Shown one piece after another: positions 65 to 13,130 of a stretch of DNA of 64,000 nucleotides. The stretch comes from Paludibacteraceae bacterium (GTDB taxonomy: Bacteria; Bacteroidota; Bacteroidia; Bacteroidales; Paludibacteraceae). Numbering within the stretch: the first letter of the stretch is position 1; every line of letters starts with the position of its first letter. The notes under the pieces were generated by a model. The model was not told where the DNA came from, searched no databases, and saw nothing but the letters and a program-made list of their open reading frames with translations. The DNA lies in assembly GCA_017451525.1 (NCBI GenBank), contig JAFTOD010000005.1, forward strand, positions 434,001-498,000, given 5' to 3'. The position numbers were made by a program, and so were the translations under genes.

Positions 65-589
65 TTACCTCAAGTGAGATGGCAATACATATAATGTAGA
101 ATATTTATTTCCACTATATACTTTGGTTTTTTCGAATCTCATCGCTTTATCTTTGAAATCACAGATATATGCATCCACCATATAATTTTCATCTTCTTTA
201 GATTCATTAGTCCAAAGACAGAGAGTTGAATGATAAGAATCATACACCCCAGCAACAACACCATTGCGCCCAATAACCCTTCCATGATATCCATCATAAT
301 GATATTCTTCCCATTGACACCGCATGAGTTCTTCAATTTGTTCTTTAGTAGGATACTGCAAACCTAGATTTTTTCCATCCAAGAAAGAACGAGAGGATTT
401 TCTTATTATCCACTTTGTTCCAGATGGTAATCCAAAATCAACAACATCACACTTAGAGATGTTATGTTCTGTTAAATAATTCTCAAGATTAATTTGATTG
501 TATCCATCATTAAAAGCCTTCATTAAATACTCTTTTAAAAGTGGTAAAATTTCGGTATCCACTTTCTTTTCGAATTCTTCCTTTTCCAT
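65..589 (-). CDS. Small hypothetical protein, last gene of accessory operon
   Basis: A 174-residue soluble protein with no signal peptide or membrane segment. Its N-terminal 40 residues are charged and look helical. Around residue 50 it has the phrase VDFGLPSGTKW, a short motif seen in many Bacteroidales proteins of otherwise unrelated make-up (established from memory, function unknown). The rest is rich in Tyr, Gly and aromatic residues and looks beta-rich. It follows the DUF1848 gene by 9 bases on the same strand, so it is probably the fifth cistron of the operon that starts near 5567. I do not recognise an enzymatic motif and assign no function. Downstream lies the window edge, so further cistrons may be missing. 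Confidence 0.75.
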   Translation of the reverse strand: MEKEEFEKKVDTEILPLLKEYLMKAFNDGYNQINLENYLTEHNISKCDVVDFGLPSGTKWIIRKSSRSFLDGKNLGLQYPTKEQIEELMRCQWEEYHYDGYHGRVIGRNGVVAGVYDSYHSTLCLWTNESKEDENYMVDAYICDFKDKAMRFEKTKVYSGNKYSTLYVLPSHLR

Positions 590-598
590 AATCTTATT

Positions 599-1651
599 TT
601 ATCCAATTATACTTTCTGAATTCAAATTAAATTTTGCTAGATTCTTTTGGACAACCTCTTTACTTGTGTTTGCATAGCAATAAACACAAAGATGATTACA
701 TGTATTGTACATACCAATATCTTTGCTTACCATGCAACCACAGATTTTTCTCTGTCCCTTGTCTTTTAAGTTCTTTCGAGAAGAAGGTATTTCTGGTATC
801 TCTCCAAACAAATCAGGTGTAGGTAACTGTCCAGTTCTTAAATAATAGACCAATTCCTTATCCTCACTCCAAAGTTTGTTCATTAACTCTCCATCTATAC
901 AGCGATTATGTTCTATGCCGTATTTATCATAATCAAACTCTTCTGCACATGTGGCTAATTGAAGATCCCAATTTTGTTTTTTCCATTCTTCTCGCATCTT
1001 ACATAGTCCAGTGATAATTTCATCACGTTGTATGGCTGTCGGTTCTGCCATTTCAATTGTTTCACGAGTAAAATAAGAGGTTTCTTTTACTAAATTATTT
1101 TGCACTTTACGATATGCTTTAACATCCACGAAACTAAATACTAGTTTATCTGTAAAGTTCTTAAGCTGATTTCCTATATCGGTAATTCGTTTAAGATGTT
1201 CTTTGGGTGTCAAAGTGTTGGTGACAATGATAGGATCATATCTCCATATGACACGTTCTTTTCCTATCAATTTAGATAATTCTTTGAAGGTTTCTATGCG
1301 TTCTGAAATTGATGGTACATTCGGTTCAAAACCTTCAGCAACGTAGTCATTTAATGTTACTTGAAAATAATAATGTATTCCTCGTTTATCTAATTCGTGG
1401 AGATATGGCATAATTGGTTTGGGATTTTTTGTCCAAAAAACAATTACTTTGCATTTTGCAAATGATATATACATAGGCTTTTGATTGAATGGATTATACC
1501 AAACACAATAGCCTTTCTCCAACCGATTGAAGAACCATTTTGCATAGAATGCAGGAATATCTGTAGAGCGACTTGCAGATATTATAACAGGAGCGGTTGC
1601 CTCAACATCTTCTCCGAGATCTGTTTTAATATATGTTTTATTTGATACCAT
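599..1651 (-). CDS. DUF1848 family protein with C-terminal cysteine cluster
   Basis: This 350-residue protein matches the DUF1848 family: an N-terminal SASRSTDIPAFYA segment, the phrase VIVFWTKNPKP, a central VIWRYDPI strand, and a C-terminal cluster of cysteines around residues 305-328 (ICGC, then TC, then LCVYCYAN). The closely spaced cysteines and the TIM-barrel-like strand/helix order suggest an iron-sulfur enzyme distantly related to radical SAM proteins or spore photoproduct lyase. That part is inference, because the family is uncharacterised. The first 14 bases overlap the end of the 688-residue gene, which implies translational coupling. DUF1848 proteins also occur alone in many bacteria, so its partners here may define its role. 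Confidence 0.85.
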   Translation of the reverse strand: MVSNKTYIKTDLGEDVEATAPVIISASRSTDIPAFYAKWFFNRLEKGYCVWYNPFNQKPMYISFAKCKVIVFWTKNPKPIMPYLHELDKRGIHYYFQVTLNDYVAEGFEPNVPSISERIETFKELSKLIGKERVIWRYDPIIVTNTLTPKEHLKRITDIGNQLKNFTDKLVFSFVDVKAYRKVQNNLVKETSYFTRETIEMAEPTAIQRDEIITGLCKMREEWKKQNWDLQLATCAEEFDYDKYGIEHNRCIDGELMNKLWSEDKELVYYLRTGQLPTPDLFGEIPEIPSSRKNLKDKGQRKICGCMVSKDIGMYNTCNHLCVYCYANTSKEVVQKNLAKFNLNSESIIG

Positions 1652-3704
1652 ACTGTTTCAATAAAAATTGATATATGTCTTCTATCTCCTTTTTATAACT
1701 CGAAAATTTCTTTATTAATAGGTTACGCAAGTGATCAATGATTCTTTTATTAGACTTGTCATGTTCTGCGTAATACTTTCCATCTGTATTTATATATTGC
1801 TCACACAACCATTGTGCGTTATCTCTAATTCTTTTTTCCAGATTATGATTGTGGATGAATGTTTGGCACATCACATCAATCCATGATAAATCTTCGAGTA
1901 CGCTATTCGTAAACTGATTTGTTGGTGGAATTGTTGGGTAAGTCTCACATTCACTAGTCGCAAATTGAATAGTTGGTTGTAAAGGGTCTGTTTGCCTGTT
2001 TATATTGAAAAATGATTCAATATATTTAATAGCACTTCCCTTTTTAAAACCTTTTTCCTTTTTTAAACCTAACAAAAACTGTACCGTATTTATATCACCA
2101 CAACTATCAAGATATGTTTTAAAAGTTATATCGTCTTTTTTGTTCTTTGATTTATACATATTCCAATGCAGAAGTAAAGCATCATAAAAATCAGGTTTTG
2201 AGGAATGTTCTGTAGATATTTCATGCTCTGTGATATTAATTTCTTCCTGTTTTTTAGAAGAAGTGTCTAATGTTTTGTTGAATAACTGTCCATAAAATTC
2301 AGTGTAGATATCCGTAACATATTTACTGTCTTGTTCTAATAGTATATCAGTAAAGTCTCTTGTTAAATTAGCAAATCCATTTAGTATGCCATACAACGCA
2401 AATGCGAAACGATAATCATTCATTTCTTTGTATCGCATAAATCTAAGTAGTTGCTCCCAATCATCACCTTTACTTAAAACAGCTGCCAATGAGGATAATA
2501 GCCCATTGTTATAATCAAACTCAAACTTTTCGCCATTTAAGTGTCTTCTCAGCCCATTAAGGAACTTTTTTTCAAAGGATCCTTCCCACTCATCTTTAAA
2601 ATACTCTTCTTTTGAATGCCGAGTCAAATCACTAGCAATCTCCAATTTCTGCGGACTTATTTTACCTTTATATTTTGCAGTCCTAAGTATATTATTTATC
2701 CATAGTATAAACAAGTTTTTGTCGATATTATCACTACACTTGAGAGTTGAAATAACCAATTCATTCGCTACTATTTCTGCAGCCTCTGTTTGTAACAATC
2801 CATTTGATTTCTTTGTTAATAAGTTTAATTTAGAAGAAATCCTACTTATTGTAGAACTATTCTCTATTGACTCAAATTTTAGCGAGGACAAAATAGAACG
2901 GCAAGTGTCAAATGGTAGAGTTACATTATATTTGTCCAAAACTCCTATTAGCTCATTTACTTTGGTATTGTCAAATGCTACTTCTTGTAACAAAGCCAAA
3001 TATAGAGGATGAGTTTGATTGATAATTGATAAATAGTTGGATAAACTTTTTATTTGGGAGTCATTTGCTATTTTTTCAGGATTAGATAATATAGCAGAAA
3101 CGATGTCATTAATTTCTAATAAAGCATGAATTTGTTTCACATTCTCGATAGAAGTAGATAATGCTGCACCAATGTAGTATCCATATAACAAACCTTTTAT
3201 TTTGTTTGTTATGACATCTTTTTCTATCTCAGAATTGGAGATAGAGATGTTATCAAAATCGCTTATTGCTTGATATTTTTCATGTGGCATATATACAATC
3301 ATTCTCTTTTTGTACAATCGCAACATTTTTGTTTCAAGACTATGTTCGGATAGAGATAATGCTATTGTTTTATCTTGTTCCGTAAAAAAATATACTTTTG
3401 TATGCCAAGGGTCTAAATATAACGTATGCGTAGAGTAAAACACACCATCTTGTAGCGTGGGAAAAGTTTCATCGGTCTCGATTTCAATTACCATAGGATG
3501 ATCTTCTACATTGGAAATTGGACGTGCAAAAGATTTAAGTCTTTCGTATAATAATATGGCTCCTTCTAAAGGATTCTCTAGAATTGAAACACAATTAGAA
3601 TATCCGAATTTTCTCAGAGGGTAAAAACCACAAGGAGATATAGACTCTGAAGAAAATATATTATTAAAATTGAGCGAACTTGTTGGTATATAATACTTTT
3701 TCAT
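1638..3704 (-). CDS. Unrecognised 688-residue protein of accessory operon
   Basis: A large soluble protein without signal peptide, membrane segments or a motif I can name. The N-terminal 150 residues look beta-rich and carry aromatic clusters (PWHTKVYFFTEQD near residue 100). The remaining 500 or so look almost wholly helical, with many Ile, Leu, Asn and Lys, like a helical-repeat or scaffold protein. It starts one base after the helicase stop codon and its end overlaps the DUF1848 start, so the three genes are tightly coupled. It is AT-rich compared with the housekeeping genes to the right, consistent with acquisition by transfer. A role as sensor or target-recognition subunit of a helicase/methyltransferase system is possible, but is only inference. 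Confidence 0.7.
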   Translation of the reverse strand: MKKYYIPTSSLNFNNIFSSESISPCGFYPLRKFGYSNCVSILENPLEGAILLYERLKSFARPISNVEDHPMVIEIETDETFPTLQDGVFYSTHTLYLDPWHTKVYFFTEQDKTIALSLSEHSLETKMLRLYKKRMIVYMPHEKYQAISDFDNISISNSEIEKDVITNKIKGLLYGYYIGAALSTSIENVKQIHALLEINDIVSAILSNPEKIANDSQIKSLSNYLSIINQTHPLYLALLQEVAFDNTKVNELIGVLDKYNVTLPFDTCRSILSSLKFESIENSSTISRISSKLNLLTKKSNGLLQTEAAEIVANELVISTLKCSDNIDKNLFILWINNILRTAKYKGKISPQKLEIASDLTRHSKEEYFKDEWEGSFEKKFLNGLRRHLNGEKFEFDYNNGLLSSLAAVLSKGDDWEQLLRFMRYKEMNDYRFAFALYGILNGFANLTRDFTDILLEQDSKYVTDIYTEFYGQLFNKTLDTSSKKQEEINITEHEISTEHSSKPDFYDALLLHWNMYKSKNKKDDITFKTYLDSCGDINTVQFLLGLKKEKGFKKGSAIKYIESFFNINRQTDPLQPTIQFATSECETYPTIPPTNQFTNSVLEDLSWIDVMCQTFIHNHNLEKRIRDNAQWLCEQYINTDGKYYAEHDKSNKRIIDHLRNLLIKKFSSYKKEIEDIYQFLLKQYGIK

Positions 3705-3705
3705 G

Positions 3706-4755
3706 TTAAATATCGTCTATAGTTGTTGTTTCTTCAGTTATATATAAATCATTTGGTATATCCGATAAGAAATCAGGCTCATAGTCTGACCACATCAAAT
3801 ACAAGTTTTTATAGGTCCGAGTTACTGCGACATACAACGCTTTTCTTTGCTCTTCTTCATAATCCTCAAGAAACGGCAAAAATACGGTCTCAAATTGGAG
3901 TCCCTTTGCGCTATGATATGTCATGATTTTAGGATTGTTACTATCAAAATTCAATGTGTCTTGACTTTGTTTGTAGTCTTCGTTATCTTTGTAACGCAAC
4001 TCGTAATTACCTCCCATATTATGCAAATGATTATATGCAAATAAAACGTTATTGTTGTGAGGGAGAAGAATAGCGACATCTGTTAGGTTTTGATCTTCAA
4101 TAATTCGGTGTATTGCTTCTAGTTGTTCTATACAAGAATCATATTCTATAATATGAGGAACTTCTTTCTCAGGACTCTTGTATGTACTAGCGACAAATGG
4201 TGGAAGATCGACACCAATGTGTTGTGATAATCTGGCAACAGGAACAGGTAAACGATAGTTATTATATAACTCCCAATACTTAGCATTACGAGCTTCATTT
4301 ATTGAAAATCTAATATCATCAACACCTATTGTGTCTTTAAGTTCTTCATAAATTGACTGTGCTGTATCTCCATAGAAGAAGAATTGTTTTCTTGTAGCTT
4401 GAATAAATTCTCTAATTTCATCTGTGGTAAAATCTTGAATTTCATCAACGATGATGTAATCAGATTTAGGACAATGTAAGCGATTCTTCCAATCCCAGTG
4501 ATAAGTGAATGTTTTATTTAACCCTAGTTGCTTTCTTCCTGAATTCATATAACGACATAGGGCTTTTGTGAAGACAACGATTTGATAATCATTACCACGT
4601 TCTTTTTGAATACGTTGTGCTTTTACTAGAGCCAAAATTGACTTACCACTTCCAGCACAACCTGATACTATACAAGATTTATCAACAACAGCATTTAAAA
4701 CAGAGCGTTGATTTTCGTCAAGTTCTGATTCTTTAATCATCCAATCTTTTTTCAT
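3706..4755 (-). CDS. Minimal superfamily 1 (UvrD/Rep-like) helicase
   Basis: A 349-residue SF1A-type ATPase. Motifs in order: Walker A GCAGSGKS near residue 32, motif Ia VVFTKAL, Walker B DEIQDF near 104, motif III GDTAQS near 129, motif IV YNNYRLP, motif V TYHSAKGLQFE, and motif VI YVAVTRTYKNLYL. It is far shorter than UvrD or Rep (about 700 residues), so the 1B and 2B insertions are essentially missing. The core alone could act as a DNA or RNA translocase or helicase. I chose the ATG at 4755 because it forms an ATGA overlap with the stop of the upstream methyltransferase. An ATG at 4782 would add nine residues and overlap more. Such small helicases occur in defence and repair loci; the specific role here is unknown. 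Confidence 0.85.
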   Translation of the reverse strand: MKKDWMIKESELDENQRSVLNAVVDKSCIVSGCAGSGKSILALVKAQRIQKERGNDYQIVVFTKALCRYMNSGRKQLGLNKTFTYHWDWKNRLHCPKSDYIIVDEIQDFTTDEIREFIQATRKQFFFYGDTAQSIYEELKDTIGVDDIRFSINEARNAKYWELYNNYRLPVPVARLSQHIGVDLPPFVASTYKSPEKEVPHIIEYDSCIEQLEAIHRIIEDQNLTDVAILLPHNNNVLFAYNHLHNMGGNYELRYKDNEDYKQSQDTLNFDSNNPKIMTYHSAKGLQFETVFLPFLEDYEEEQRKALYVAVTRTYKNLYLMWSDYEPDFLSDIPNDLYITEETTTIDDI

Positions 4756-5567
4756 GACACATGAGGTGTTAAAATTCTCCAAGCAATTTTGCTTGTATCA
4801 TTTTGCTTATGAGAATGGGTTATATAATATATTTCGTTATAATTTTCGTTTTTATCTTTAGTTGTCATAAAAGAAGCATTTATTCCCTGATCGATAATTT
4901 TGGGTAGCCAATCATGGGCAACATCGCTATATGATGTTATATCAGCTAAACATATCAAGCCTTTTGCAGAAATATGGGAAGAAAATGTTTGTAGCAAATA
5001 TTCGTATGGGTTTCTCTCTTCTAGTTGCTGCTTAGTAACAAATTCGCAAATCGCTTTAAATGATATAACTATATCGTATTGAGCATCCTTTAGACACACA
5101 CTCTCAACAAGTGATAAGTCGTAAAAATCATCAATTACAAATGGGATTACTTGATAATCTACTTGAAAATGAACATGTTCTTGTACTTCTGTTAAAATTT
5201 GCTCTAAGTTTCGTAGTGCATGATGATTGCCATCTAAAGCTTGAACGTGAATTTGTTTAATATTAGAGCGCTGTTCATAAAGCGCAATAAGGAGTCCAAT
5301 TAATTCTCCTGCAGTGCCACATCCAAAATCGAATATACTCAATTCGTTATTATCACTCAACTCGTTTTGGTTTTTTAATAAGTATTGGCTAAAAATACAA
5401 TATGACTCTGCATAAGAACGAGGAAAATATGTTCCAAGGTAGCATAAAATGTCATTGGCATCCCAATTTAGGACAACCATATCCTTGCATCGCTTGCAGA
5501 ATTTAGCGGACAAGGTATTGAATATGTAATCGTCTAACCACTTAGGCAATACTACCTGATTTTTCAT
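4752..5567 (-). CDS. Rossmann-fold SAM-dependent methyltransferase-like protein
   Basis: A 271-residue soluble protein with a class I methyltransferase core. Motif I is FDFGCGTAGE near residue 80, followed by QALDGNHHAL (acidic end of strand 2), an IDDF post-II segment and YDIVISFKAICEF, where NPPY would stand in an amino-methyltransferase. There is no NPPY or DPPY, so an N6-adenine DNA methylase is unlikely. The upstream YLGTYFPRSYAE phrase recalls the Rsm22-like group of rRNA methyltransferase-like proteins. That resemblance is loose. It is the first gene of the accessory operon and lies about 65 bases downstream of the structured RNA. The stop codon overlaps the helicase start. The substrate cannot be inferred. 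Confidence 0.75.
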   Translation of the reverse strand: MKNQVVLPKWLDDYIFNTLSAKFCKRCKDMVVLNWDANDILCYLGTYFPRSYAESYCIFSQYLLKNQNELSDNNELSIFDFGCGTAGELIGLLIALYEQRSNIKQIHVQALDGNHHALRNLEQILTEVQEHVHFQVDYQVIPFVIDDFYDLSLVESVCLKDAQYDIVISFKAICEFVTKQQLEERNPYEYLLQTFSSHISAKGLICLADITSYSDVAHDWLPKIIDQGINASFMTTKDKNENYNEIYYITHSHKQNDTSKIAWRILTPHVS

Positions 5568-5631
5568 GGGGTACTTATAATGGTTTGCATAGGAACTCCC
5601 AACTATGCGGATTTGTGGTTAAGTATAGGCA

Positions 5632-5968
5632 TAAAATAAAAAGCGTGGAGTCCGACTGTTGTCGTTCCACGAACTGAGGCTCTCGCATTGCCTTTAACAA
5701 GAGAACGACAACGCGAAGCCCACGCCGAATATAAACACCAGACCTATATCTAAGTACATTTGGATATACTATGTATACACAAACGAGCACCTAATAGGCA
5801 TAGTAAGGACAGTCTATATCCCGCAGGACATCTATCGTTGCTAAGTTCTGCTTGCTATTTGAAATTTGCGAGATTTCAGTTCGCCAGAACAGAGCGCTAA
5901 TAAACGCCTTTTAAATATGTCTGCTACCCTCCGCCAACGATGTGCAGACATCCCCGGCGTGGAATTGC
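5632..5968 (-). ncRNA. Structured RNA with own promoter and terminator, upstream of accessory operon
   Basis: On the minus strand a full consensus promoter (5973-6004) is followed by about 335 nt of non-coding, strongly structured sequence. Exact stems: 5944-5950 with 5918-5924 (7 bp); 5885-5890 with 5845-5850, enclosing 5873-5878 with 5860-5865; 5826-5831 with 5816-5821; 5703-5712 with 5658-5667 (10 bp). The segment 5720-5727 (CGGCGTGG in the RNA) can pair either with the RNA's 5' part at 5955-5962 (8 bp) or with 5643-5648 (6 bp), and the latter is followed by a U-run. That makes a terminator or an alternative-structure switch. It may be a stand-alone RNA (Bacteroidales-1/6S-like RNAs also have this promoter and a terminator) or the regulated leader of the operon starting at 5567. 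The 71-codon ORF across it looks spurious. Confidence 0.65.
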
Positions 5969-5972
5969 GCTG

Positions 5973-6004
5973 CAAATATACAACATTTTTTTGACATGAC
6001 CAAA
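5973..6004 (-). promoter_or_regulatory. Bacteroidota consensus promoter for the structured RNA
   Basis: Read on the minus strand, TTTG at 6004-6001 is followed after exactly 20 nt by TATATTTG at 5980-5973, matching the -33 TTTG / -7 TAnnTTTG promoter of the Bacteroidota primary sigma factor. Transcription should start near 5968. Confidence 0.75.
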
Positions 6005-6587: not shown

Positions 6588-7466
6588 TTAAATTCTCTCT
6601 AATACAGTTTGTACGAGCTGTTTGATACGAGGTTTGTAGTCGGTGTTAGCGGCTTCGACTTTGCGTTGGGCGATGACGCAGCAGACGGTCATAGCCTTGT
6701 GTCCCATCAGCAAACTGAGGCCTGCGATAGCACTACCTTCCATCTCGTAGTTGGTGATACGTTGTCCCTCATAGCGGAAGTCGGTGATACGTTCGTTGAT
6801 GTCCTTCACTGCCAAATCGCAACGCAATACGCGACCTTGAGGGCCATAGAAACCATTGGCAGCGATGGTGCAACCACGCATCATATCATCGCCTGCGATG
6901 CGATTGACCAGTTCGGGGTTGGCAGCCACCACATAAGGGCGCGCCGCTTTGGCAGGATAGTGGATGAAGTCCACGAGCGCATCCTCAAAGCCGAGGTCGG
7001 CAATCTCATCACGGCCTTCGTAGAAAGCCAAGACACCATCCCAACCGATGGATTTCTCACTCACGAGGAAAGTGCCGAGAGGGATGTCCTCTTGCATGCC
7101 TCCGCACGTGCCGATGCGCACAATCTCAAGTGTGCGGTGCTCGTCTTTCTCGGTGCGAGTAGCGAAGTCGATGTTGGCGAGAGCGTCGAGTTCGTTGAGC
7201 ACGATATCGCAGTTGTCGGTGCCAATACCCGTGGAGATACAGGAGATACGTTTGCCGTGGTATTTGCCTGTAATGGTATGAAACTCACGGCTTTGGATAT
7301 CGCACTCGATACTGCCTTCATCGAAGAACGAAGCCACCATATTCACGCGACCTTGGTCGCCGACTAATATCACTTTATCCGCCAGATGTTCGGGGCGAAT
7401 GTGCAAATGGAATATGCTACCATCCTCATTGATAATGAGTTGGCTGGCAGGGAAAGTTTTTTTCAT
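6588..7466 (-). CDS. Nucleoside phosphorylase (uridine phosphorylase-like)
   Basis: A 292-residue cytosolic enzyme of the PNP/UDP family, which cleaves nucleosides with phosphate to base and ribose-1-phosphate in salvage. Family features: ILVGDQGRV near the N terminus (phosphate-binding GDPxR equivalent), ISCSTGIGTDNCDIVLNEL reading in the middle as a strongly conserved glycine-rich strand, RIGTCGG, and TNYEMEGSAIAGL, which holds the ribose-binding Met-Glu. The longer reading frame up to 7517 runs through an intergenic palindromic repeat (CGCTCGCTACGCTCGC), so I start at the ATG at 7466, which begins the family alignment (MKKTFPASQ). Bacteroidales genomes usually annotate this gene as a nucleoside phosphorylase of COG2820. 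Substrate preference is uncertain. Confidence 0.9.
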   Translation of the reverse strand: MKKTFPASQLIINEDGSIFHLHIRPEHLADKVILVGDQGRVNMVASFFDEGSIECDIQSREFHTITGKYHGKRISCISTGIGTDNCDIVLNELDALANIDFATRTEKDEHRTLEIVRIGTCGGMQEDIPLGTFLVSEKSIGWDGVLAFYEGRDEIADLGFEDALVDFIHYPAKAARPYVVAANPELVNRIAGDDMMRGCTIAANGFYGPQGRVLRCDLAVKDINERITDFRYEGQRITNYEMEGSAIAGLSLLMGHKAMTVCCVIAQRKVEAANTDYKPRIKQLVQTVLERI

Positions 7467-7568
7467 GTGGTTAGAAGTTTTTAGATCGCTCGCTACGCTC
7501 GCTTGAAGATCGGGCAAAGCCCTGTAGATCGCTGCGCTGTAGCGGTCGCAGAGCGGTCGGGTTAATGA

Positions 7569-7874
7569 TTAGGCTTGACCGCCACCGAAGGACATAGGAA
7601 TAGTGCTTCCTGGGGCAGGTGTGCCATTGATTTTGATGGTACCAAATTGCTTTTCGTATTTAGCTACATTCTCTTGCAGCGCAAAGAGCAGTTTTTTGGT
7701 ATTCTCAGGTGTCATAATGATACGCGATTGCACGTTTGCGCTCTTCTGACCAGGCATCATACGCACGAAATCTACTACGAACTCCGATGAAGAGTGTGCG
7801 ACAATTGCGAGGTTAGAATAATTACCTTCAGCCACTTCGGGCGAGAGGTTGATGTTGAGTTTTTGTTCTTCCAT
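7569..7874 (-). CDS. DUF3467 protein
   Basis: A 101-residue protein matching DUF3467: LSPEVAEGNYSNLAIVAHSSSEFVVDF is the family hallmark in sense (quoted in part: GNYSNLA and EFVVDF), followed by QSRIIMTP and a LLFALQENVAKYE helix. It is small, soluble and cytosolic. In other Bacteroidetes the family often sits beside RNA polymerase genes. Here it lies between the phosphorylase and a glycosyltransferase on the same strand. Function is unknown. The C-terminal Gly-rich tail (SFGGGQA) is usual for the family. Flanking spacers on both sides carry short palindromic repeats. Confidence 0.9.
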   Translation of the reverse strand: MEEQKLNINLSPEVAEGNYSNLAIVAHSSSEFVVDFVRMMPGQKSANVQSRIIMTPENTKKLLFALQENVAKYEKQFGTIKINGTPAPGSTIPMSFGGGQA

Positions 7875-7943
7875 AGTTTTATAATATTTTAGATGTTAGA
7901 CTACGTTGTTAGATATTAGATCGCTACGCTGTTGGATATTGAA

Positions 7944-9128
7944 TTACCAGTATATTGGTTGTTTTCGGAATGATTGTGTACAAAGCATATATAGGTTGAT
8001 AATTGGTAATGCAATATCGTAGCATATAATCTCTAAACCATGACGCTGTAATCCCAATCGCCTTGCCGATAAATTCATCACCAGCAATTGTATAATCAAA
8101 CGGATGACAAACAATAGTAGTGCAGCACATCCCATTAAGCCATCGCTAAATGCTAACAACAAAATCAGCAATAGATACATCATTCCTCTAGTCATAGGCT
8201 CTACTACTAAACGCAGTTTGCTATTGATGTTGTAATGAGGCGAAACCGACAAATGACGACGTTTTTGATGCAGCCAATCTCTCCATGTTGTCTTAGGAAT
8301 CGACCAAACGACACTTTCTTTGCTACAAACAATCGACGTATTATCCTTGTTTGCCACTTTGTTTACAAACAAATCATCATCACCAGCTCGCTCTCCTAAT
8401 AAGCCCTGAAAGCCGTTGTTATTGAAAAACGTGTCGCGTCGATATGCTAAATTGCGCCCTACTCCCATATACGGATAACCCGCTCGTGCCATACCCAAAT
8501 ACTGTAAACCAGTGAAGAGAGTATCATAGCAAATCAAACCATTTAAGAGTCCTTCTTTTTCAAAATAAGCACTAAATCCAAGGACCACTTCGGTTTTACC
8601 ACCAGTAAAACCGCTTGCCATCTCTCTTAACCAATAACGTGACTCTGGACGACAATCAGCATCTGTTAGTACTAAACATTCATTATGTGCCGCCTTTGCA
8701 CCTATCGTCAATGCAAGTTTCTTGCTACTGATTACGCGTGCCTCGCGAGGAACAAATGTGCGATAAAAATTAGTATATTGGCGAGCGTACTGCTCTAAAA
8801 TCATTGTTGTTTGGTCTTCTGAGCCATCATCCACCACAATCACTTCGAAGCAGGGGTAATCTTGGTTGAGCAATGTATGGAGATAATCGCGCAGGTTGTC
8901 CCGCTCATTGCGAGCACATACTATTACGCTTATCGTGGGCAGAGTAGGGATTGCCTCGTTGCTATGGAGTTGCTTGCGCGTATCAAGTTGCTCCCACAAT
9001 ACACCTGCCATATAACGAAGGTAATGATATAGTTGATGTGCAACCATCAACAACATCGCTAATAGCAAGCAACTATCTAATTGCCAATTGCTTAGTTGCA
9101 ACCAAAAGTCTAAGAGCACCGAGCGCAC
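7944..9128 (-). CDS. Membrane-anchored family 2 glycosyltransferase
   Basis: A 394-residue protein with one N-terminal membrane segment (about residues 8-38), a GT-A domain and two C-terminal hydrophobic segments. Catalytic-domain signs: SVIVCARNERDNL near residue 65, VVDDGSEDQT (nucleotide-binding DDGS), LTDADCRPE (metal-binding DxD equivalent), and a QKRRHLSVSPHYN acceptor-site helix (QxxRW-like, here Q-K-R-R-H). The architecture resembles processive or polyprenyl-linked GT2 enzymes in surface glycan synthesis, working on the cytosolic face of the inner membrane. The sugar donor cannot be told from sequence. It is followed by 18 bases and the SGNH gene upstream on the same strand, so the two are probably co-transcribed from the promoter at 9917. 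Confidence 0.85.
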   Translation of the reverse strand: MRSVLLDFWLQLSNWQLDSCLLLAMLLMVAHQLYHYLRYMAGVLWEQLDTRKQLHSNEAIPTLPTISVIVCARNERDNLRDYLHTLLNQDYPCFEVIVVDDGSEDQTTMILEQYARQYTNFYRTFVPREARVISSKKLALTIGAKAAHNECLVLTDADCRPESRYWLREMASGFTGGKTEVVLGFSAYFEKEGLLNGLICYDTLFTGLQYLGMARAGYPYMGVGRNLAYRRDTFFNNNGFQGLLGERAGDDDLFVNKVANKDNTSIVCSKESVVWSIPKTTWRDWLHQKRRHLSVSPHYNINSKLRLVVEPMTRGMMYLLLILLLAFSDGLMGCAALLLFVIRLIIQLLVMNLSARRLGLQRHGLEIICYDIALPIINLYMLCTQSFRKQPIYW

Positions 9129-11807: not shown

Positions 11808-13130
11808 TTAGGCTTTTTTAGTGCAGGACTTTTTAGGAGTCGCAGATGCTTCTTTTTTAGCGGATTTTTTCGCCTCTTTCAGTTGTTTCTCGAGCTTTTC
11901 AATCTCTTTCTCCTGATTTTGAATGGTTTTGAGCAATTCATTCAACTCCTCGTTCTCAATAGTAGTTGGGTATTGCTCGTCCACACGTTGGAGGAAGTCA
12001 GAAAGCACGTTCATATAATTGATGAATGCATCGTACGCCGACTCATAGTGGCTTGTGCCAGCATCGATGTGATTCATATAGTGCAAGTAGTTGACATCTT
12101 GCAATAGTAGCCAGTCATGCTTCAATTGTTTGTCTTTGCACAAGTGCACACGTTCAGCCACAGCAAATAGTTTTTGTATGGCTTCATTTTGCAGGTCGTT
12201 ACCAGTATAGACGCTCAAGTCTTTAGCCTCACCAGCCCATGTGATAGGATATGGAGCCACTACCACATCCTTAGCAGCGAACTTCTTTGCTGCCTCCGAT
12301 GGAGTCATGAAACCAATTCCATATTCCAATGCGAAGTAAGGCAATGCCTTGAGGAAATCAAAGATACCAGTCATCGCGTGTTGGCGAATACCGAAAGTAT
12401 CAGCTCCCACCCAAATGTTTACCACTTGCTCATCTTCAGGCAAAGCAGCTAGTTGTTGGGTATATTTCTCGGCGTCCATAGGATAGTTATGCCAATTAGG
12501 GTCAGCAAAATGGAAGGCCAACTCATCGCTTAAGTTACCATTGCGGAGCAACATCTTCATCTTTGGTGCAGAAGCACTACTATACACATAGTTTGGACTC
12601 TTCCAGCTCAGCACATGCTTAGCACCTTCGGTCATCACGGTCTTGTAGCCTTGTTGGTACAAAGAAATCGCGATTTCATCGCTATAAATGAGCTCTGTGT
12701 TGCAGATGGTAGTGGATACCTGTCCAAAGAGTTCCTTCACCATTGCTTGTTGCAGTTGCAATTGTTCGGCTGCCTCGGTTTCGCTATAGACAGTCGCCAA
12801 TGATTGGCTATAAGGAGTAGCCACAAACTCCACACAACCAGTATCAGCCAATTCCTTGAGCAAGTCTATCATCTCTGGAGCAAACTGCTGGAACATCTCC
12901 AGCATCACACCACTCACACTCAGTGCGCAACGGAAATTCTTCTTCGACAGACGAATCATCTCTTTTATCGTCTGACATAGTGGCATGTAAGAAGTATTGA
13001 CAAGCCAATTAACATGCTCTTCGGTTTGCATGTCATCATAGTAATAATGATCTTGACCAATCTCAAAAAAACGATAACGCTTCATTCTGTAAGGAGCGTG
13101 CATCTGAAAGCAAAAACAAATATTTTTCAT
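11808..13130 (-). CDS. GH57 alpha-amylase-like protein
   Basis: A 440-residue cytosolic GH57-fold protein. Region 1 reads HAPYR near residue 11 (HQPxR in active enzymes), region 2 VEFVATPYSQSL, region 3 NTELIYSDE with the expected nucleophile Glu146. Region 4 reads VGADTFGIRQ near 241-250, where active enzymes have a catalytic Asp in a D-x-E-x-F-G context; here that Asp is Gly242. The acid/base is therefore missing by this alignment. GH57-like proteins lacking catalytic residues are described in Bacteroidetes. The C-terminal 60 residues form a coiled coil followed by a Lys-rich tail. It is the last gene of the glycogen operon. Confidence 0.88.
   Translation of the reverse strand: MKNICFCFQMHAPYRMKRYRFFEIGQDHYYYDDMQTEEHVNWLVNTSYMPLCQTIKEMIRLSKKNFRCALSVSGVMLEMFQQFAPEMIDLLKELADTGCVEFVATPYSQSLATVYSETEAAEQLQLQQAMVKELFGQVSTTICNTELIYSDEIAISLYQQGYKTVMTEGAKHVLSWKSPNYVYSSASAPKMKMLLRNGNLSDELAFHFADPNWHNYPMDAEKYTQQLAALPEDEQVVNIWVGADTFGIRQHAMTGIFDFLKALPYFALEYGIGFMTPSEAAKKFAAKDVVVAPYPITWAGEAKDLSVYTGNDLQNEAIQKLFAVAERVHLCKDKQLKHDWLLLQDVNYLHYMNHIDAGTSHYESAYDAFINYMNVLSDFLQRVDEQYPTTIENEELNELLKTIQNQEKEIEKLEKQLKEAKKSAKKEASATPKKSCTKKA

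Follow-up and report, generated by a model that had tools for sequence, protein, structure and literature searches.

Among the systems described so far, those closest to the gene cluster analysed here are Gabija, BREX and the DRT systems with their accessory proteins. The cluster lies in a stretch of 64,000 nucleotides from a Paludibacteraceae bacterium (hereafter the window, meaning the whole stretch), and its helicase is a GajB-like SF1 helicase as in Gabija, but no GajA (the OLD-family nuclease) is among the matches listed for the five window proteins, those of the helicase being the best 25 of 37 PADLOC families. The helicase also matches the DRT accessory models RTasHel (1.3e-12) and RTasNERD-Hel (1.1e-11) of the 2023 PADLOC library, and the DUF1848 protein of the cluster matches RTasDUF1848 (1.3e-42); thus, DUF1848 and helicase parts are also known beside reverse transcriptases, but no reverse transcriptase domain is among the matches listed for the five proteins. 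BREX genes flank relatives of the cluster in 6 of 78 loci, but neither BrxC, PglX and PglZ, which mark BREX, nor any other BREX gene is among the matches listed for the five window proteins. We found no mention of UvrD, radical SAM or ADP-rib in the available part of a BREX survey (PMC12839542), nor any of DUF1848 in the literature searched. Restriction-modification differs in that motif IV of DNA amino-methyltransferases, (D/N/S)PP(Y/F/W), occurs in none of 68 methyltransferases from the cluster and its relatives.

For the leader RNA that precedes the cluster, UpxY-type antitermination is a possible parallel, and the BrickBuilt/MITE elements of Porphyromonas were also considered; BrickBuilt reportedly holds a minisatellite. 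Rfam contains structured RNAs from the same phylum, some in a cis-regulatory position, namely, Bacteroidales-1, Bacteroid-trp and DUF805b, the first two being known Bacteroidetes structured RNAs according to the available part of PMC2864571. However, none of them matches the leader RNA, the 35-nt DUF805b motif occurring only downstream of a few of its copies, and a search against Rfam 15 gave no match beyond chance lines. A description of this RNA was not found in our literature search or in the available parts of PMC2864571 and PMC7366714, which is not proof of absence. The leader is thus a large multi-copy RNA of Bacteroidales without a family in Rfam 15.

The window contains five minus-strand genes in head-to-tail arrangement, encoding a methyltransferase (4752-5567; 271 aa), an SF1 helicase (3706-4755, counted from its ATG start; an upstream TTG at 4782 begins the listed ORF), a protein of 688 aa (1638-3704), a DUF1848 protein (599-1651; 350 aa) and a small protein (65-589; 174 aa). 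The junctions, read from the sequence in gene order with the methyltransferase first, are an ATGA overlap, a 1-nt gap, a 14-nt overlap and a 9-nt gap. These junctions and the ORF coordinates bear out the tight head-to-tail arrangement described in an earlier, sequence-only reading of this DNA. Its remark that the operon is AT-rich relative to its flank also holds, as the G+C content is 32.4% in the operon against 43-46% in the flanks (45.9% at 6588-9128) and 42.1% in the whole window, and so does its placement of a structured RNA upstream of the first start codon, since about 67 nt separate the end of the folded RNA from the start of the methyltransferase gene. On the other hand, the small fifth gene had been counted as part of the same unit, and this we could not maintain: the protein has no match in Pfam, and no homologue was detected at E<=1e-4 among the ORFs of at least 60 aa in any of the 78 loci, so that it is not conserved with the other four genes.

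We fetched these 78 loci from named genomes with a profile of the 688-aa protein; the set is thus anchored on this protein, and near-identical pairs (L074/L076, L092/L101, L099/L100 and L120/L121) were kept within it. On the same strand and within 4.5 kb of the 688-aa gene, a helicase gene is found in 76 of the 78 loci, a methyltransferase gene in 68 and a DUF1848 gene in 65. The other loci hold a methyltransferase and a helicase (7), a helicase and DUF1848 (4), a helicase only (4) or none of the partners (2), with contig ends accounting for some of the missing ones. The sequence-only reading had named a lack of co-occurrence elsewhere as a result that would refute it, and this is not what we see, as all four genes lie together on one strand in 61 of the 78 loci; its expectation that the DUF1848 protein would be a rare component is contradicted by the 65 loci that have it. 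Judging by this co-occurrence, the first four genes are a conserved module with a patchy distribution. In the window's family, 6 of 200 genomes match the 688-aa protein, and in the order 7 of 393 match its six-member profile, the window's own genome being included in both counts; we therefore regard the protein as rare and patchy; none of the 20 other genomes listed from the same genus has a match. Most of the 78 loci are from Bacteroidales, a few from Flavobacteriaceae, Algoriphagus and Desulfovibrio, and a few from MAGs labelled Helicobacteraceae, Chloroherpeton, Alphaproteobacteria or Clostridium, labels that possibly reflect binning errors. The locus from the Clostridium-labelled MAG (L077) carries the leader RNA. 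At another locus (L073, 3911-9127), the place of the usual partners is taken by a protein of 1738 aa that shows an SF2 helicase together with weak matches to methyltransferase and MTES_1575; the other neighbour of the 688-aa homologue there is a coiled-coil-like protein.

The window methyltransferase is of the class I SAM type, its Pfam methyltransferase matches being weak and below the cut-off. A motif SF(K/R)x(I/V/L)(C/N)E is present in 39 of the 68 module methyltransferases, and an N-terminal NERD domain is fused to 8 of the 68, as judged by similarity to that of L165, which itself passes the Pfam cut-off; the L055 methyltransferase shows a sub-threshold HEPN_Swt1 match at the N-terminal position. 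The helicase is a minimal UvrD/GajB-like SF1 enzyme of only about 350 aa with Pfam matches to Viral_helicase1 and UvrD_C_2; PADLOC GajB models match parts of it, up to 7.8e-17, and its PDB matches include GajB, HelD and UvrD/PcrA. Searched by pattern, 78 helicase proteins have kept Walker A in 75 cases, DExQD in 76 and motif VI in 77.

The DUF1848 protein matches PF08902 with an E-value of 1.2e-95 and carries a C-terminal radical-SAM motif, C318-x3-C322-x2-C325, followed by YA. Across 26 aligned DUF1848 proteins, seven cysteines are invariant, including those of the CxxxCxxC motif and Cys 235, 251, 304 and 306. The cluster motif with the following YA is shared with the radical-SAM family PA0069 (NF033668) and with spore photoproduct lyase, but in DUF1848 it stands at the C-terminus. 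Using hhalign, we aligned residues 290-350 with NF033668 at P-values of 4.3e-9 to 4.8e-11, and residues 73-167 with the part of NF033668 after its motif, weakly (P 0.018-0.046); the barrel part alone, with scores of 24.7 and 21.8, stayed below the best shuffle in both cases (26.7 among 40 shuffles and 23.0 among 60). When the DUF1848 alignment was rotated, one colinear match of 205 columns was obtained, against 60 columns before, with a hardly higher score (72.9 to 73.4). DUF1848 may well be circularly permuted. A solitary DUF1848 gene in a Parabacteroides plasmid record (L167, 7339-9035) adjoins a gene for flavodoxin, a possible radical-SAM electron donor. As for the 688-aa protein, no Pfam, PADLOC, NCBIfam or PDB family gave a match of value, and PDB profile searches with this protein, the methyltransferase and DUF1848 yielded no useful family. 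A Pfam RexA line turned up for 2 of 68 members.

Our best explanation, to which we give roughly even chances, is that the four-gene module is a horizontally moving antiphage unit that, in the window, would be transcribed from a single promoter, with a large leader RNA of the terminator type ahead of its genes. Defence is favoured because of the embedding in BREX, the NERD fusion and the patchy distribution. In L119, L122 and L125, the helicase and 688-aa genes sit inside a BREX operon, flanked by PglX and PglZ; in L095, L106 and L115, BrxL is followed by the methyltransferase, DUF1848, helicase and 688-aa genes, in this order. Two loci from a viral collection (L165 and L166) adjoin ORFs that we read by eye as integrase or relaxase. 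As compared across the loci, the genes stay together across genera, and the leader, with its predicted promoter element, covarying long-range fold and terminator-like end, recurs before the module. The helicase would engage foreign or replicating nucleic acid, and the 688-aa protein, its near-constant partner in our set, could be the core effector or sensor; DUF1848 and the methyltransferase would use SAM chemistry to modify a target, be it nucleic acid or protein; in some lineages, a nuclease (NERD, possibly HEPN) would have been added on the methyltransferase; and the leader would keep expression of the operon down until termination is relieved by a signal. The sequence-only reading had suggested a new defence, repair or RNA-processing system: the co-occurrence of four genes agrees with a system of this kind, and BREX, NERD and patchiness tip it towards defence, but the fifth gene falls outside the unit. 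If this explanation is right, a conserved four-gene module is absent from the 2023 defence catalogue that we used (PADLOC), and its core protein has an unclassified fold and a radical-SAM-like partner.

Several results weigh against a role in defence. The copy in the window lacks a nuclease domain, DUF1848 genes occur also apart from the module, and a search with the 688-aa protein gave no match in plasmids and one weak match in phages. We scanned 121 of the 222 neighbouring proteins collected, considering the best 25 of 109 and the best 25 of 118 families, and among the families listed no defence family has more than five matches: SLFN_AlbA_2 has 5, the YhcG/PDC-S02 nuclease 3 and BrxL 2, the other families being mostly single matches of housekeeping type.

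The main rival explanation, which we consider unlikely, is that the module is a cassette for nucleic-acid repair or damage reversal, in which the UvrD-like helicase would expose a lesion and DUF1848, as a relative of spore photoproduct lyase, would reverse or edit it. The strong match of the C-terminal motif segment to NF033668 (see above) speaks for it, as does the best E-value against spore photoproduct lyase, which is 0.0014 for the rotated window DUF1848 against 0.031 for the unrotated one; a solitary DUF1848 gene also lies near AlkB on a Planktothrix plasmid. However, BREX embedding, NERD fusion and patchiness are more usual in defence, and AlkZ-rel (2 matches) is the only hint of repair among the best 25 of 118 Pfam families in the 121 scanned neighbours.

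We likewise find it unlikely that the module acts via ADP-ribosylation, with a 688-aa protein composed of an ADP-ribosyltransferase-like N-terminus and a degenerate ADP-ribosylglycohydrolase fold. The middle of the protein does weakly resemble ADP-ribosylglycohydrolases: residues 155-500 align with PF03747 proteins with an hhalign score of 32.7 (P 0.0011), above the controls (at most 18.8 in 40 column shuffles, 20.6-21.8 for reversed sequences), and a true ADP-ribosylglycohydrolase gene lies beside the 688-aa homologue in L079. Nevertheless, the hhalign probability is only 20.7%, the score falls to 19.8-22.1, i.e., to the level of the reversed controls, when three subsets of PF03747 are used singly, and the residues that we take to be the catalytic aspartates of these enzymes are missing by eye in the 688-aa protein. 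A DarT-like N-terminus was also considered and rejected, as its P-value of 0.065 is within noise (0.099 for the reversed control).

The leader RNA itself has about 340 nt (5633-5972, minus strand) and is predicted, from its fold z-score and covariation, to form a long rod. It is preceded at 5973-5980 by an element TAnnTTTG, which we take to be the promoter -7 consensus of the Bacteroidetes type. Its 5' half contains the conserved core (5814-5923; model R1, 120.6 bits) and its 3' half is covered by model R2 (5635-5739; 102.4 bits), the window copy being among the eight that built the models; a terminator-like hairpin with a T run was located by alignment in the R2 part, at about 5635-5672. The window RNA folds with a z-score of -5.99 relative to 100 dinucleotide shuffles, none of which folds as well. 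When the eight copies from the window's own genome were folded singly, the same core segment paired with the 3' half in all of them, and in 17 copies at module heads, 58 to 89 of the 106-118 core bases pair with the 3' half. Scored over the eight copies, pairing is seen in 85.4% of cells; shuffling the letters of the 3' side among copies lowers this to 79.7% (sd 0.6), and sliding the partners lowers it to 35-46%. Changes on both sides occur in 55 cells, whereas the shuffles give 23.3 (sd 3.8). Each of the three main long-range helices shows pairing in 95.7-100% of its cells, with 15 doubly changed pairs among them; by contrast, the closing helix (44.8%), one inner helix (54.5%) and the inner terminator helix (46.9%) of the window fold are poorly kept. 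A broader comparison used 83 of the 88 sources with both halves, the near-duplicates L284, L295, L299, L307 and L329 being left out: the strength of pairing between two segments within a copy was 1611 and 1564, whereas permutations, which ignore relatedness, had means of 1167.7 (sd 23.3, with 1222.5 as the highest of 200) and 997.0 (sd 22.1, highest 1067.0). The leader RNA thus has a conserved, covarying structure. Pseudoknots were dropped as a candidate feature, as the long-range helices that covary lie nested within the fold predicted for the RNA.

The upstream sequence of the window has 25 matches in its own genome, of which 8 copies align in full; all eight precede a co-directional ORF and have TAnnTTTG 72 or 115-116 nt before the shared core motif. 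R1, the 110-nt core model, matches 59 of 120 genomes of the family (own genome included), with up to 15 copies per genome, and 22 of 247 genomes of the order at E<=1e-4. R2 matches occur in 88 of 100 sources holding R1, and the leader RNA is about 300-390 nt long. TAnnTTTG precedes 80 of 97 copies (background fraction 0.084), and 89 of the 97 have a loose terminator-like pattern behind them (background 0.28). We fetched 80 copies from other genomes, mostly the best scoring and away from contig ends, and in 77 of them the first ORF of at least 80 aa is co-directional; its median distance from the core is 215 nt, and in 71 cases it lies within 700 nt. The leader RNA therefore lies upstream of co-directional genes and has a terminator-like end, and we read it as a probable terminator-type regulatory leader. 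A non-autonomous mobile element, spread by transposition and landing upstream of genes by chance, would also give scattered and numerous copies, but such an origin seems quite improbable to us, since nearly all fetched copies point into a co-directional ORF and the other long matches in the own genome are only 74-76% identical to the window copy while their helices covary, which argues that the copies are old and under structural selection.

We searched for leader copies at module heads in 78 sources, comprising the window, five family loci and 72 of the 78 fetched loci; L072, L085, L087, L099, L113 and L120 were left out, five of these six being the family loci L032-L036 under other names and L120 being near-identical to L121. 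In 18 sources, an R1 match directly precedes the methyltransferase gene in the same orientation, and R2 adds L088. This recurrence led us to reject the view of the leader as a mere repeat unrelated to the operon. A further copy, in genome G253 outside the 78, lies about 3.1 kb upstream of a 688-aa match on the same strand, and away from the head R1 matches occur in L090, L054 and, twice, L079, with weak ones (E 4.1) in L074 and L076. We consider it very improbable that the RNA works within the module, as a guide, antitoxin or scaffold, rather than as a regulator. In favour of such a role, a copy stands at the module head in 19 of the 78 sources, which belong to several genera according to their record titles, and genome G303, to which L059 belongs, has no further copy at E<=1e-4 besides that at the module head. 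Against it, most copies precede unrelated genes and none was found at the head in the other 59 sources, including the closest relative, L050. The missing head copies also count against the antiphage explanation, as does the position of the leader before many non-defence genes.

Among the best 25 families for 71 genes directly behind other copies, nine genes match BspA-type LRR proteins, three match SNF2/PLD-type helicases (defence models) and three match DUF4988, with one C5 methyltransferase, one JukA and a few glycan enzymes. The leader RNA serves accessory genes at large, the four-gene module being one recurrent client; the sequence-only reading had made it the operon's own part, whereas it is a dispersed family heading many other accessory genes. 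Tentatively, at somewhat less than even chances, we suggest that the leader represents a new large regulatory RNA class, through which scattered accessory genes of Bacteroidales would be joined in one regulon answering to a single cellular signal; mobile defence cassettes would thereby plug into a host-wide RNA switch. With the same reserve, the members of this regulon would be genes for surface repeat proteins and glycan enzymes, defence genes of the PLD-helicase and methyltransferase kinds, and the four-gene module. The leader would offer a handle on how mobile accessory genes stay silent or get switched on.

Some individual copies deserve mention. Those in L277, L292 and L294 precede related proteins of about 1100 aa, which we take as the three PLD/SNF2 helicase members, and those in L270 and L330 (648-5361) stand before genes that appear, by eye, to encode Hsp70-like or EF-Tu-like GTPases; one of the 71 genes matches HSP70. 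The DUF805b motif (RF02914) is found downstream of leader copies above the cut-off in L253, shortly before a start codon, and in L257, far downstream, and below the cut-off in L222. Finally, L079 holds two leader copies in one locus (1885-1995 and 12089-12196), one of them right after the 688-aa homologue.
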